Shown one piece after another: positions 27,766-31,864 of a DNA stretch of 64,000 nucleotides. The DNA comes from Halodesulfovibrio spirochaetisodalis. Lineage in GTDB: Bacteria > Desulfobacterota > Desulfovibrionia > Desulfovibrionales > Desulfovibrionaceae. A program made the translations under genes and the position numbers. The notes below the pieces were generated by a model, which did not search any database, was not told the DNA's origin, and saw only the letters and a list, made by a program, of their open reading frames with translations. The stretch's first letter is position 1. Each line of letters starts with the position of its first letter. The stretch covers positions 1-64,000 of the forward strand of contig NZ_JXMS01000014.1 of NCBI RefSeq assembly GCF_001672295.1. Direction: 5' to 3'.

Positions 27766-29253
27766 TTAGATGTGTAGGTAGTTCCTAACTCGTTTTGCTG
27801 CAATCACTCCTGCTTCAATGGCTGTTTCAAAGACAGGGTAAATCATACCATCGCCAGCGAGTTGAACTCCACCATTCAATGTACCATATAGCTTGGTAAG
27901 ACGAGAGTATGCACCTACTGTGGAGACGGGGTAGGCGTAAGTAAATCTGTGGATGTCATATCCGCGTACTTTTTGCTTAAGGTCTGGCCAAATCTCTGCG
28001 AGTTCAGTGTAACTTCTTTCCAATAACTCATCATCAGTGGCTTCTAGCAGGTAGTTATCTTTATATGAGAATGGCGCTATATAGAGGGAGGCAATGTATC
28101 CTTTATGCGATTCCCCAAGCTTTCGTTGAATCCATGTTGAGTCATAGACATCTGTCGGTAGCAATCCGTCCGGGAGTGCCAAGTCAAAAGCATCAGTGAA
28201 AATAGGTTCGTCACTGAAAAGGGCTGCAGTCACGTAGGGGCCGTAGGGGACTTGATCTATTAAGTGCTGCTGGTACTGTGTGAGTATTTGTGAACCAATA
28301 CGTTGTGTAACCGGCATCGGTGTTGCGAAGATAACACTGCGTGTTTTGATTGTTTGAGTGTCACCGTTTGAAGTGTACTCAACATTATATAATCCATCTG
28401 CTGTTTTCTTTACGCCGGTAACCTTTGCCGATGTCATAACCTTATCGCCAAGCCTGCCTACAAGGGCATTGATTACGTCAGTAATACCGTTGGGGAAAGA
28501 GTATGCCCCGCTGGACTCATTTCTTTCATCCTTATTTTTTTGTAAGAATTCTTTTGTGACGGGGTAATCAAGTCCGATAAAGTCAAAAGCTATTTCTGGG
28601 AAAGCCCCCATTGCAGAGACTTCGTTAATATTGGCGCCAAATAAACCGCGGAAGGTTACATTGTAAATTTCAGAATAAATGTTGGGTAATTGTAGTTGGT
28701 CAAACCATTCTTTGCAGGTGAGCCTGTCTAGATAGGCAATCCTGCTCTCTTCATCAAAGTCTGGTACTTCATCATAGGAATTTGCGATGTTGATCAGGGT
28801 CTCCAAAAAACTATTTAGTTCGTCCAGCCCGCCTTTTTCAGCCAATAACTGTAATCTTCCGTTGTCGCCACTATATAGCTTACCTTCATGCCATATCTGA
28901 TCCATCGGAGAAGGGATTTCAATAGCTTTCAAATTCAGTTCAGTAAGCATTCGTTTAAAAGTACCGTAGGGCTTACTTAGGTATTCAGTACCCTTAGTAT
29001 ACGACCAGCCATTGTGTTCACCCGAGACTGTACGTCCACCGAAGTATTCTTCTGCCTCCAGTAGCACGATGTTTTTATCCTGAAGATGAAATGCTGAGGT
29101 TAAGCCAGAAATTCCTCCACCTATAATTACGGTGTCTTTTACTGTTGCAGTAGCGTAGGCGTTAGTGACGCTTGGAATTGGAGAGAGCACATTAGCTGCT
29201 GCAGACGATAGCAGCATTGTAATAAAACGCCTTCGGTTTAACTTGAGATTCAT
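27766..29253 (-). CDS. Flavin amine oxidase with N-terminal export signal
   Basis: A 495-residue FAD-dependent amine oxidase. From the chosen start the N terminus reads NLKLNRRRFITMLLSSAAANVLSP, a twin-arginine-like signal (RRRFI), then VIIGGGISGLTSAFHL (FAD), GGRTVSGEHNGWSYTKGTEYL and a C-terminal GGVQLAGDGMIYPVFETAIEAGVIAAKRV. I chose ATG 29253 because CAGGAG lies seven bases upstream; the frame is open to 29310 but those residues would bury the signal. It is divergent from a MarR regulator with a palindrome between. The substrate is probably an amine or similar compound; exact identity is unknown. Confidence 0.85.
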   Translation of the reverse strand: MNLKLNRRRFITMLLSSAAANVLSPIPSVTNAYATATVKDTVIIGGGISGLTSAFHLQDKNIVLLEAEEYFGGRTVSGEHNGWSYTKGTEYLSKPYGTFKRMLTELNLKAIEIPSPMDQIWHEGKLYSGDNGRLQLLAEKGGLDELNSFLETLINIANSYDEVPDFDEESRIAYLDRLTCKEWFDQLQLPNIYSEIYNVTFRGLFGANINEVSAMGAFPEIAFDFIGLDYPVTKEFLQKNKDERNESSGAYSFPNGITDVINALVGRLGDKVMTSAKVTGVKKTADGLYNVEYTSNGDTQTIKTRSVIFATPMPVTQRIGSQILTQYQQHLIDQVPYGPYVTAALFSDEPIFTDAFDLALPDGLLPTDVYDSTWIQRKLGESHKGYIASLYIAPFSYKDNYLLEATDDELLERSYTELAEIWPDLKQKVRGYDIHRFTYAYPVSTVGAYSRLTKLYGTLNGGVQLAGDGMIYPVFETAIEAGVIAAKRVRNYLHI

Positions 29254-29333
29254 TTTAAGCTCCTGTTGTGGTCGTGTGCTTGTGGCTGGCGGTTTGGTCT
29301 TGCATTTCATTAAAAGGGATGAACCATGAAGTC

Positions 29334-29364
29334 AATATAGTTAATTAAGTAAATTAACTATATT
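29334..29364. promoter_or_regulatory. Perfect 13-bp inverted repeat, probable MarR operator
   Basis: AATATAGTTAATT and AATTAACTATATT are exact reverse complements separated by AAGTA. The 31-base site lies about 80 bases upstream of the amine-oxidase ATG and 100 upstream of the marR start. That is where a repressor controlling both divergent promoters would sit. The AT-rich arms are typical of MarR sites. Confidence 0.75.
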
Positions 29365-29464
29365 TATAAAGAGAGAGTACGCGCATTAGGCAAGAGTTTA
29401 GCAGGGCGATCAGCCTTGCGGCTAATGTAAACTTATTTTAGGTAAGGTAAGTAAATGAAGGCAC

Positions 29465-29914
29465 GTGCAACAATATGGAATTAAATTTACAATGGATGAA
29501 CTCAAAAATAGCATTGAAAGGATTTATGAGAAATATATTGCTAAGTGTTTGCAGCATAAAGCAGAATCGTTCTCTGGTCTTTCTGAAATAAGCGTCACAG
29601 ATTCTCATTATCTAGAAATCTTATACTATCTAGATGATCCTACGTTTTCACAGTTTGCGGATGCTGCTAATGTTTCAAAACCGGCAGCTACTCAAATTAT
29701 TAAGAAGTTTATAGCGAAGGGCTATCTTAGCAAGGTTCAATCTCAAACGGATAAGAGGGTCTATCGATTACAGCTGCATGACGGGTATAAGCAATATTTT
29801 GCTGAGATTTCACGTGTTGAGGCTGAATTGTTTAAGAGTGTTGTTTCAGCGTTGACGGAAGATGAAATAACTTTTCTGACGAAGACGTTGCATAAAATCG
29901 AGAGCAAACTTTAG
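29465..29914 (+). CDS. MarR-family transcriptional regulator
   Basis: A 149-residue winged-helix regulator. The recognition region is DDPTFSQFADAANVSKPAATQIIKKFIAKGYLSKVQSQTDKRVYRLQLHDG (about 57-107), with the wing basic motif DKRVYRLQL. Flanking helices would form the dimer interface. The GTG start has GAAGG only three bases away; ATG 29492 (codon 10) is an alternative. It likely represses the divergent amine oxidase and itself through the palindrome at 29334-29364, and may respond to a substrate amine. The GNAT gene follows after 19 bases. Confidence 0.88.
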   Translation: MQQYGIKFTMDELKNSIERIYEKYIAKCLQHKAESFSGLSEISVTDSHYLEILYYLDDPTFSQFADAANVSKPAATQIIKKFIAKGYLSKVQSQTDKRVYRLQLHDGYKQYFAEISRVEAELFKSVVSALTEDEITFLTKTLHKIESKL

Positions 29915-29933
29915 TAAGAAGTCGGGTGCGTCG

Positions 29934-30581
29934 TTGAAATTTGTAACTTACCAAAAAAAATATTTGAATAGTTGTGTTGAGCTAGTGCGTGATACGTGGA
30001 GTTTTCATGAAAGTTTCAAAAATGCTAACCAGCTGGATATTCTCTATAAATATTATTTTTTGTCATGTTACAACTACTCTGAACACTGCGAACTGCTGAT
30101 TGACGAAAATGATACCGTTCGCGGCGTTTTGTTTGGCAGTATTGAGGCTGAAACAATTACTCGTTCTGTTAAGTACAAGTTTCACGAAGTGGCATTGGGG
30201 ATCTGGATTTTTTTGCACGTGATGTTGGGTCGTTTGGGATGCCGATCCACGGCTTTGAAAGAGATATCTGCTTTAACCGAAACAGACATGCTCGGCGAAC
30301 AGTATGCAGAGCAATTCGCAAGTGAGATAAATTTATTTATTGTTGCTAAAGGGTTGAGAGGGAGCGGTTTTGGCAGAGCCTTGATGGACAGATATGTGGG
30401 GTTTTGCAAGAAAAATGGTTTGAAGTCTGCTTTTTTATGGACCGATCTGGATTGTTCCTTTTCGTTTTATGAAAAGTATGGATTTAGATTACATTCAACC
30501 TTTTATCATCATAAGCTGGCAGATACAGCGACTCGCAAAGATAATGGTTTGATTTTTTATTTAGATATCCCTCTCGTGTAA
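29934..30581 (+). CDS. GNAT-family N-acetyltransferase
   Basis: A 215-residue acetyl-CoA-dependent acetyltransferase. The acetyl-CoA loop is VAKGLRGSGFGRALMDRYVGFCKKNG (Q/R-x-x-G-x-G/A pattern), followed by SAFLWTDLDCSFSFYEKYGFRLHSTFYHH, the C-terminal GNAT segment. The N-terminal half (1-110) is less typical. The start is TTG with a poor ribosome site, so it is uncertain. It is 19 bases behind marR and may belong to the same transcript, which would link it to metabolism of the same compound as the amine oxidase. Confidence 0.82.
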   Translation: MKFVTYQKKYLNSCVELVRDTWSFHESFKNANQLDILYKYYFLSCYNYSEHCELLIDENDTVRGVLFGSIEAETITRSVKYKFHEVALGIWIFLHVMLGRLGCRSTALKEISALTETDMLGEQYAEQFASEINLFIVAKGLRGSGFGRALMDRYVGFCKKNGLKSAFLWTDLDCSFSFYEKYGFRLHSTFYHHKLADTATRKDNGLIFYLDIPLV

Positions 30582-31162: not shown

Positions 31163-31227
31163 TGCCGCTTCAGGGCTTATAAAATATATTGTAGATTTGT
31201 TATGTGATGATCTGCAATTTAAAAATA

Positions 31228-31272
31228 AAATCCGATGCCGACATGAATAGCATGTCGGCATCGGATTTTTTA
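31228..31272. terminator. Strong hairpin terminator after the HAD gene
   Basis: AAATCCGATGCCGACATG and CATGTCGGCATCGGATTT pair over 18 bases around AATAG, followed by T on the plus strand and by TTTATTTTTAAA on the minus strand. It can serve both the HAD gene and the 89-residue minus-strand gene. Confidence 0.92.
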
Positions 31273-31321: not shown

Positions 31322-31591
31322 TTATACAATCCGTCCGAGTGAGTGGATGAGATTTTTTCTAAGCGCACGATGACGCCAGATTTCTTTCTCATCACCTGTG
31401 GCCAGATCTTTGCGCAATGCGGCGCGTAGTTCATCTTTTTGTGTCGTTGAAAGGTGAAGCATTCGAATGTCGCCTAAGAGTTCCAGTAGATCAGAATACT
31501 GCGATGGTGCTGGTTGATCGGTGGAGTCGTGGTAAAGGAACACGATACTTGCTTTCGGGGCTGCTGCAAATTGTGTTAAAAAGGCTAACAT
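31322..31591 (-). CDS. Orphan 89-residue protein behind a SAM-type riboswitch
   Basis: A small protein I do not recognise. The N-terminal third has a hydrophobic strand (ASIVFLYHDS, about 14-23), the remainder is helical and charged (TTQKDELRAALRKDLATGDEKEIWRHRALRKNLIHSLG). No signal peptide, Cys pair or membrane span is present. AAGGAG lies eight bases before the ATG. Upstream on the same strand lie an intrinsic terminator and a SAM-I-type riboswitch; downstream there is only a terminator. It is thus the sole gene under that switch, which points to methionine, SAM or sulfur metabolism. That link is inferred from the leader alone. Confidence 0.8.
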   Translation of the reverse strand: MLAFLTQFAAAPKASIVFLYHDSTDQPAPSQYSDLLELLGDIRMLHLSTTQKDELRAALRKDLATGDEKEIWRHRALRKNLIHSLGRIV

Positions 31592-31681
31592 GAATAATCT
31601 CCTTGTGACCGGAACATCCGGAAAGCTATTAGCTGTATTTTTATCGGACGCGCAATGCTATAAATCCGCCCGTATAAGCAT

Positions 31682-31707
31682 AAAAAAAGCCTCTCATAAG
31701 AGAGGCT
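31682..31707 (-). terminator. Attenuator terminator of the riboswitch leader
   Basis: On the minus strand AGCCTCTC and GAGAGGCT pair around a four-base loop and run into seven T (31682-31688). The 5' half CAGCCTC is complementary to GAGGCTG at the end of the riboswitch P1 stem, giving an alternative antiterminator. High SAM should therefore stop transcription. Confidence 0.9.
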
Positions 31708-31723
31708 GAAGTATCTACACAGC

Positions 31724-31825
31724 CTCATGGTTTCCGCAAAAGCGGCTGGCTTAGCACCTTGTTCTGTAATCAGTACAGGTTGCCGGACAGTCTTCGGGCC
31801 AGATCCCTCGTGTCCTCTGCATGAG
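31724..31825 (-). ncRNA. SAM-I-type (S-box) riboswitch
   Basis: Read on the minus strand, P1 is CTCATG (5') with CATGAG (3'). Inside are CAGAG, GAGGGA, TGGCCCGAAGA, TCCGGCAACC, and AAGGTGCTAAGCC, matching the SAM-I consensus AGAG, GAGGGA, GGCCC, CGGCAACC, GGUGCUAA. P4 is CCGC-TTTT-GCGG. The core sequence order and spacing fit an S-box, with small departures (two extra bases in the P2 arm, AAACC before P1). The expression platform follows at 31682-31707. I assign SAM as ligand from family knowledge. Confidence 0.87.
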
Positions 31826-31836
31826 CGTATGGATCT

Positions 31837-31864
31837 AGTATGCGCCAGTTTTTTATAAAGTCAA
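31837..31864 (-). promoter_or_regulatory. Probable promoter of the riboswitch transcript
   Basis: On the minus strand TTGACT (31859-31864) and CATACT (31837-31842) are 16 bases apart, and the riboswitch P1 begins about 11 bases further on. The remaining stretch up to murJ (31865-32119) is AT-rich and should hold the murJ promoter; I see no gene in it. Confidence 0.5.

Follow-up and report, generated by a model that had tools for sequence, protein, structure and literature searches.

The locus described here lies in a stretch of 64,000 nt from Halodesulfovibrio spirochaetisodalis that was analysed at its full length (hereafter the window); coordinates are positions in this window, and all the features of the locus are on the minus strand. 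An open reading frame at 31322..31591 encodes an orphan protein of 89 residues. It is preceded by the Shine-Dalgarno sequence AAGGAG (31599..31604), 7 nt before the start codon, and followed by a strong intrinsic terminator of 19 pairs (31227..31269) that closes a single-gene unit. The first-pass annotation, made from the sequence alone, had seen no other gene before the next terminator, and the one other minus-strand frame of at least 50 codons in this interval (54 codons) indeed overlaps the small-protein gene. The murJ gene is divergent upstream, and a gene for a HAD-type hydrolase is convergent downstream.

Upstream of the small-protein gene, an S-box core had been read from the letters of the minus strand, and covariance-model searching confirmed it: RF00162 (SAM-I) matched at 31722..31827 with 58.0 bits (E 8.2e-11), above the gathering score of 44.4 bits, and positions 1-108 of the 108 in the model were aligned to the aptamer, some of the pairs being non-standard. 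It is the sole RF00162 match in this draft genome (3.61 Mb, 59 contigs, 99% complete). The P1 stem, antiterminator and U-tailed terminator of the same description are also present. P1 is formed by CTCATG (31825-31820) and CATGAG (31729-31724), and the predicted antiterminator (31702..31726) by GAGGCTG (31726-31720) and CAGCCTC (31708-31702). The GAGGCTG strand overlaps the 3' arm of P1 and its partner overlaps the terminator, so that this pairing competes with P1 and the terminator and the expression platform is exclusive with P1. The terminator, AGCCTCTC-TTAT-GAGAGGCT followed by a T run, occupies 31681..31708, with a hairpin of 8 pairs at 31707-31688 (-14.4 kcal/mol). The promoter-like pair that had been noted further 5', TTGACT-N16-CATACT (31837..31864), exists with 9 of 12 matches; however, two such sites were found in the region by scanning against 1.8 in shuffled sequences, which is the level of chance, and the pair is therefore no proof of a promoter.

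A further element, absent from the earlier description of the locus, lies between the terminator and the start codon (31615..31677), where the SAM-II model RF00521 gave 11 bits at 31629-31672. Its plan consists of a P1 stem (31672-31667 / 31650-31645), the L1 motif GAUUU (31666-31662), a short loop, UUGC (31655-31652), an A-rich linker, GCUAA (31633-31629) and a tail able to pair with the loop, in the window through a possible pseudoknot between AGC (31659-31657) and GCU (31626-31624). The same components follow one another in the same order in SAM-II riboswitches.

The small-protein gene is under purifying selection, with Ka/Ks of 0.058-0.096 against five congeners and of 0.034-0.133 in 10 of the 11 pairs of family members computed, the 11th having a saturated Ks and a 12th pair being skipped for unequal length. 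Members are 88-91 residues long by the chosen start codons, and all 17 that were inspected begin with ATG and have a GGAG-type site upstream. The alignment of 14 of these 17 proteins (A1; three near-identical Nitratidesulfovibrio members were left out) contains 21 invariant columns, including W72, R75 and R78-K79-N80, and the pI ranges from 4.8 to 8.9 in nine members. Matches in Pfam, NCBIfam, PHROGs, PADLOC and PDB sequences were all weak and scattered, the best having E 0.016. Predicted by AlphaFold from 10 sequences, the structure is mostly helical and of moderate confidence (mean pLDDT 76); the model had no PDB match at E <= 0.001, none of the 11 chains compared reached Z >= 2, and these fold searches revealed no DNA- or RNA-binding fold. 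The protein could thus not be assigned to a family by any of these routes, as had been stated beforehand.

Homologues of the small protein were found in 17 of 119 genomes of the family by protein search and in 34 of 297 genomes of the class by profile search, while a profile search of 297 genomes across the phylum found it only in the window genome. A 35th match in the class (G274, residues 35-77 of a 1037-residue frame, E 7e-4) was dropped as spurious. The protein occurs in three genera: Halodesulfovibrio, Nitratidesulfovibrio and a genus recorded as Desulfovibrio, which we take to be Maridesulfovibrio and refer to below as g8. An RF00162 match was located directly upstream and on the same strand at every small-protein locus scanned, namely the window, 16 of 16 and 20 of 20, the last scan taking in five of the nine named homologue loci; by coordinates, each of the 34 class genomes with the small protein carries a SAM-I aptamer upstream of the gene. 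The homologues therefore keep the leader, and the view that this SAM-I switch is dedicated to an unassignable small protein is upheld.

Eight regions were compared for gene context. Among the matches listed, the leader and gene are flanked by the HAD gene on one side and murJ on the other in Halodesulfovibrio and Nitratidesulfovibrio and are found elsewhere in g8, where they are kept together despite the different neighbourhood, which suggests that leader and gene form a self-contained module. In the neighbourhood of the window itself, the interval 27766-30581, from an ssb-like gene to the HAD gene, contains amine-oxidase-like, MarR-like and GNAT-like frames (named by eye) that are without counterpart in the congener region L100 among the matches listed, and the difference would represent a local insertion or loss. 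At a distance from the locus, a selenocysteine tRNA is present at 919-1008 of the window (RF01852, 84.6 bits).

The leaders were further compared with respect to their expression platforms. Of the 37 leaders collected, 35 are distinct; some named and unnamed loci come from a shared record, so that the leaders do not represent 37 independent genomes. A terminator script identified a hairpin with a T tail in 28 of the 37; the remaining nine (four in Nitratidesulfovibrio and five in g8), which were missed by its strict T-tail rule, have a hairpin with a T-rich or interrupted T tail when read by eye, and the antiterminator counts cover the others. Perfect antiterminator complementarity of 6-8 nt is present in 10 of the 11 Halodesulfovibrio leaders (two of which have the same sequence); none was seen among the 17 testable leaders from g8 and Nitratidesulfovibrio, two of which have 5-nt matches. 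Classical termination is thus well supported in Halodesulfovibrio, and the terminator/antiterminator geometry in the genus of the window is a computed result.

In the class as a whole, 49 SAM-I aptamers were detected in 44 of the 297 genomes, in a scan that, like all our RNA-model scans of more than 40 genomes, used stricter filters by which weak matches are lost. SAM riboswitches normally point at methionine or SAM genes, yet the commonest target in this class, preceded by 34 of the 49 aptamers, is the uncharacterised small protein. The other 15 comprise four second aptamers in Halodesulfovibrio, five before panC-type genes, one in G230, two in G060 and three in a fourth genus, g14. In Halodesulfovibrio, a second SAM-I aptamer precedes metX in G096 (L044), G021 (L046) and G172 (L176, by reading of the frame), and G283 also has a second aptamer; in the window genome, neither a second SAM-I aptamer nor metX was found. 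The panC-type genes (pantoate-beta-alanine ligase) were identified by Pfam at L035 and read from the frames at L033, L038, L040 and L042, and at L042 a metK-like frame, read by eye, follows. An unusual target is represented by ADP-ribosylglycohydrolase-type genes, which lie directly downstream of SAM-I in two families, in G230 (L174, 457-1350) and in G060 (L034 and L045); PF03747 was assigned by Pfam for G230 only, and the two G060 frames are similar. In g14 (L037, L039 and L043, that is, G013, G077 and G054; for example L043, 1500-2249), SAM-I and a SAM-II-like element stand before a second orphan protein, which has 149 residues in G054 and no Pfam match.

The second element accompanies the small-protein gene almost without exception. 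The motif of P1, GAUUU, UUGC and GCUAA was found in 36 of the 37 small-protein leaders (34 of the 35 distinct ones), and in the class sample the element is present in 33 of the 34 small-protein leaders and in three leaders of another orphan gene. The exception is G021, in which SAM-I and the small-protein gene are present and the second element was found neither by motif nor by a model derived from the element (R2, see below). Across the 297 class genomes, the same model found no element convincingly without SAM-I. The distance from the end of GCUAA to the ATG is 33-37 nt in the subgroup of the window and mostly 100-154 nt in g8 and Nitratidesulfovibrio.

The relationship of this element to SAM-II was examined with the Rfam models RF00521 (SAM_alpha) and RF01726, which is also a SAM-II model. 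No SAM-II-like element reached the gathering score: the best relative has 27.9 bits against 36 for the SAM-II model. In a cmscan against 4227 families, the element of the window matched SAM_alpha with 11 bits (E 3) in 14th place, below chance matches to the terminator. Among 12 mini-loci, SAM-II models were the best match in five (SAM_alpha with 20.5, 19.2, 15.3 and 14.6 bits, RF01726 with 15.9), and seven had no SAM-II match, including that of the window and five other Halodesulfovibrio stretches; the other families that appeared in these runs were an lncRNA model on the antisense strand and a snoRNA model. In the g14 leaders, SAM_alpha was twice the best of the 4227 families, scoring 27.9 bits (E 1.4e-4) and 27.6 bits (E 1.8e-4) when 308 bases were searched, and RF01726 was the best in the third (20.1 bits, E 0.15).

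Two models derived from the element itself, R1 and R2, were then compared with these sequences; the window element is in the training sets of both, and R1 was built without g14. In 119 genomes, R1 gave one further match below E 0.005, in G013 of g14 (E 1.8e-4), located 3' of SAM-I; its other matches, at E >= 0.005, were taken as chance. Applied directly to the g14 SAM-I leaders, R1 was positive in all three (E 2e-6 to 3e-6), two of which its filtered scan of the family had missed. The g14 relatives with E values down to 1.4e-4 are thus tied to the window element through R1, the window copy alone being not significant. In the reverse direction, five rhizobial loci were used whose SAM-II had been found by a blastn search with the consensus sequence of Rfam; two of the five have metA annotated downstream. 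With filters off, R1 placed its best match on the aptamer in five of five, with individually weak E values (0.004, 0.17, 0.17, 0.62 and 4; two of the loci score equal), and the five best matches of R2 over 17 loci were the five rhizobial aptamers (E 0.0055-0.46), while the 12 SAM-I loci without the element gave nothing better than E 1.5. R1 also had no matches at six alphaproteobacterial plasmid metX loci, which is uninformative because Rfam finds no SAM-II there. Over the 297 class genomes, R2 returned 33 matches at E <= 2e-10, many of which belong to its training set or closely resemble members of it, and all were located in tandem leaders (30 of the small protein and three of g14); the small-protein leaders of G096, G172 and G283 scored weakly at the expected place. 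Five R2 matches outside tandem leaders (G305, G188, G005, G265 and G064; E 0.003-0.006) were taken as chance.

Structural support was assessed on an alignment of 23 of the 27 distinct elements (A3), four near-identical g8 copies being left out; a further alignment (A6) consisted of 14 A3 sequences, without the long-insert Halodesulfovibrio forms, and two g14 elements. In the 23 aligned elements P1 is 90% paired, and both sides have changed in four of its seven pairs. The covariation score over P1 and the pseudoknot was 0.396, against 0.171 in shuffles that ignore relatedness (none of 500 reached the observed value) and no more than 0.185 when the partners were slid out of the true register. 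The count of pairs with changes on both sides, six, is unremarkable, being reached in 178 of 500 shuffles. In the fixed register, 69% of the pseudoknot cells are paired, with one of the three pairs formed in only five of 23 rows, and with a free register the pseudoknot was not significant (3.30 versus 3.19 pairs; 621 of 2000 shuffles as high). Folding with the tail occupied raised the accessibility of the Shine-Dalgarno sequence in two and lowered it in three of 34 leaders. Judged by motif plan and model matches, the second element is probably homologous to SAM-II; the name SAM-II-like is retained because all copies score below the gathering score, the pseudoknot is not significant in the free register and no consistent switching of the ribosome site is predicted. 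On this evidence, the SAM-II models now in use appear to overlook a divergent branch that lies outside the alphaproteobacteria.

Taken together, our analyses favour, with a probability of roughly two in three, an operon of a single gene that is repressed by SAM through two successive gates, the protein being made when SAM is scarce. The first gate, whose SAM-I class was established by computation, as was the near-constant association of both elements with the gene, would act on transcription: with SAM bound, P1 would hold the GAGGCTG strand, the terminator would form and the RNA would end before the gene; in its absence, GAGGCTG would pair with CAGCCTC and transcription would proceed. The second gate, the divergent SAM-II-type element, would be present only on transcripts that escape the first and most likely acts afterwards, on translation or mRNA stability. 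Given two SAM gates in series, the small protein would be made only under SAM scarcity. Binding of SAM by both RNAs, the action of the second gate and the role of the protein are what we infer. If this reading is correct, a second SAM-type sensor is apparently stacked behind the first at the commonest SAM-I target of the class.

An alternative is that only SAM-I senses SAM and that the second element is a conserved hairpin with another role, such as a binding site for the small protein or another factor, an mRNA stabiliser or a sensor of a different ligand, its likeness to SAM-II having arisen by convergence. The scores below the Rfam thresholds, which are lowest for the Halodesulfovibrio copies, the pseudoknot test in free register and the lack of predicted ribosome-site switching are consistent with such a hairpin. 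Nevertheless, the only riboswitch families that appeared in the mini-locus runs were the two SAM-II models, and the element-derived models land on rhizobial SAM-II aptamers. Moreover, the g14 element lies ahead of another protein, one that Pfam does not recognise, which makes a binding site reserved for the 89-residue protein less likely. We consider this alternative unlikely. It is far less probable still that the reading frame is non-functional or merely coding-like and the leader is a trans-acting RNA: although a distal target can be regulated in trans by a Listeria SAM riboswitch, according to the available text of PMC12121620, the Ka/Ks values of 0.034-0.133, the 21 residues invariant in 14 aligned members and the ATG with a GGAG-type site in all 17 members inspected speak against this reading.

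Under the two-gate reading, the small protein is most likely an accessory or regulatory factor that would raise methionine or SAM supply or spare SAM, and it is probably a new part of methionine/SAM control. The first-pass annotation had suggested a new participant in the physiology of methionine, SAM or sulfur; the dedicated SAM-I switch on an unassignable protein stands, and the physiological role is its natural reading only. Our preferred guess as to function, a tentative one, is that the protein is a relay which at low SAM stimulates or de-represses DUF39/HcyBio or another methionine gene that lacks a SAM switch. Desulfovibrio depends on the DUF39 (HcyBio) route to synthesise homocysteine, as given in the available part of PMC5764234. 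In keeping with a relay, the window genome has one SAM-I aptamer and no metX match, and in the family sample full-length metX-like genes, which nowhere in the 119 genomes reached the curated cut-off, occur in only two of the 17 small-protein genomes, while HcyBio, the homocysteine gene, occurs in all 17; a regulator under a metabolite switch would also explain the monocistronic unit. On the other hand, 70 of the 102 family genomes that lack the small protein also have HcyBio, the fold searches gave no sign of a DNA- or RNA-binding fold, and the pI of the nine members spans 4.8 to 8.9. Furthermore, the SAM-cycle genes of Desulfovibrionales are already under the SAH-sensing SahR in nine of 10 genomes, by the available text of PMC4239095; as SahR already senses SAH there, its complement would be an arm that senses SAM to serve methionine supply. 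A joint reading, which we hold to be equally doubtful, is that Desulfovibrionaceae evolved the two-class gate, SAM-I followed by SAM-II, and use it only for orphan proteins of small size (the 89-residue family of three genera, the 149-residue protein of a fourth), which would act as relays of SAM status to switch-less DUF39/HcyBio. The locus offers a testable entry to methionine regulation in bacteria whose homocysteine comes from the DUF39 route.

Earlier surveys touch on several of these elements. In the available text of the study by Rodionov and colleagues in 2004, no S-box is listed for two Desulfovibrio genomes and missing homocysteine genes are noted (PMC545781). Among some 200 proteobacterial genomes surveyed in 2014, including 10 from Desulfovibrionales, SAM_alpha was located only in Rhizobiales and Rhodobacterales, as far as the available text of that survey goes (PMC4239095). 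The accessible part of a 2022 survey of tandem riboswitches reports SAM-II/SAM-V in Pelagibacter, SAM-II/SAM-I-IV (7) and SAM-I/IV-SAM-II (2); it contains no pair of SAM-I followed by SAM-II, and its two Desulfo- mentions concern another organism and other riboswitches (PMC9481103). The main text of a 2025 survey of contiguous riboswitches contains no Desulfo- word (PMC12452182), and a SAM-I/SAM-II pair may be contained in its tables, since all SAM classes are pooled there as one family. By titles and the opening lines of abstracts, no SAM-I/SAM-II leader in sulfate reducers was found in the literature searched, which comprised papers outside subscription.

The closest precedent in a related sulfate reducer is a 2024 report of a SAM riboswitch before the hypothetical gene RS11395 of Oleidesulfovibrio alaskensis G20, the function of which was left open (PMC11124144). 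By the available text of that report, a sulfate reducer with a solitary SAM riboswitch ahead of a hypothetical gene is therefore already in print; the arrangement, a single SAM-I before a hypothetical gene, is alike, and RS11395 is possibly the same gene as ours, but that text describes neither a survey of homologues nor a second element. Compared to known SAM-I (S-box, RF00162) riboswitches, the first element has a full-length aptamer above threshold and, in the genus of the window, the usual logic of P1, antiterminator and terminator, but its target is an orphan small protein instead of a recognised methionine, SAM or cysteine gene. With SAM-II (RF00521/RF01726), the second element shares the motif plan and model matches in both directions, but it remains below the gathering score and was found only downstream of SAM-I in the genomes searched. 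The tandem leader, present in 36 of the 297 class genomes, most closely resembles the bi-mechanism tandem SAM switches, in which one leader carries two structurally different SAM sensors, the first with a terminator. Here, too, a terminator follows the first switch, and folding indicates no clear switching of the ribosome site by the second; the difference lies in the pair itself, which is SAM-I followed by a SAM-II-like element, and in its orphan target.
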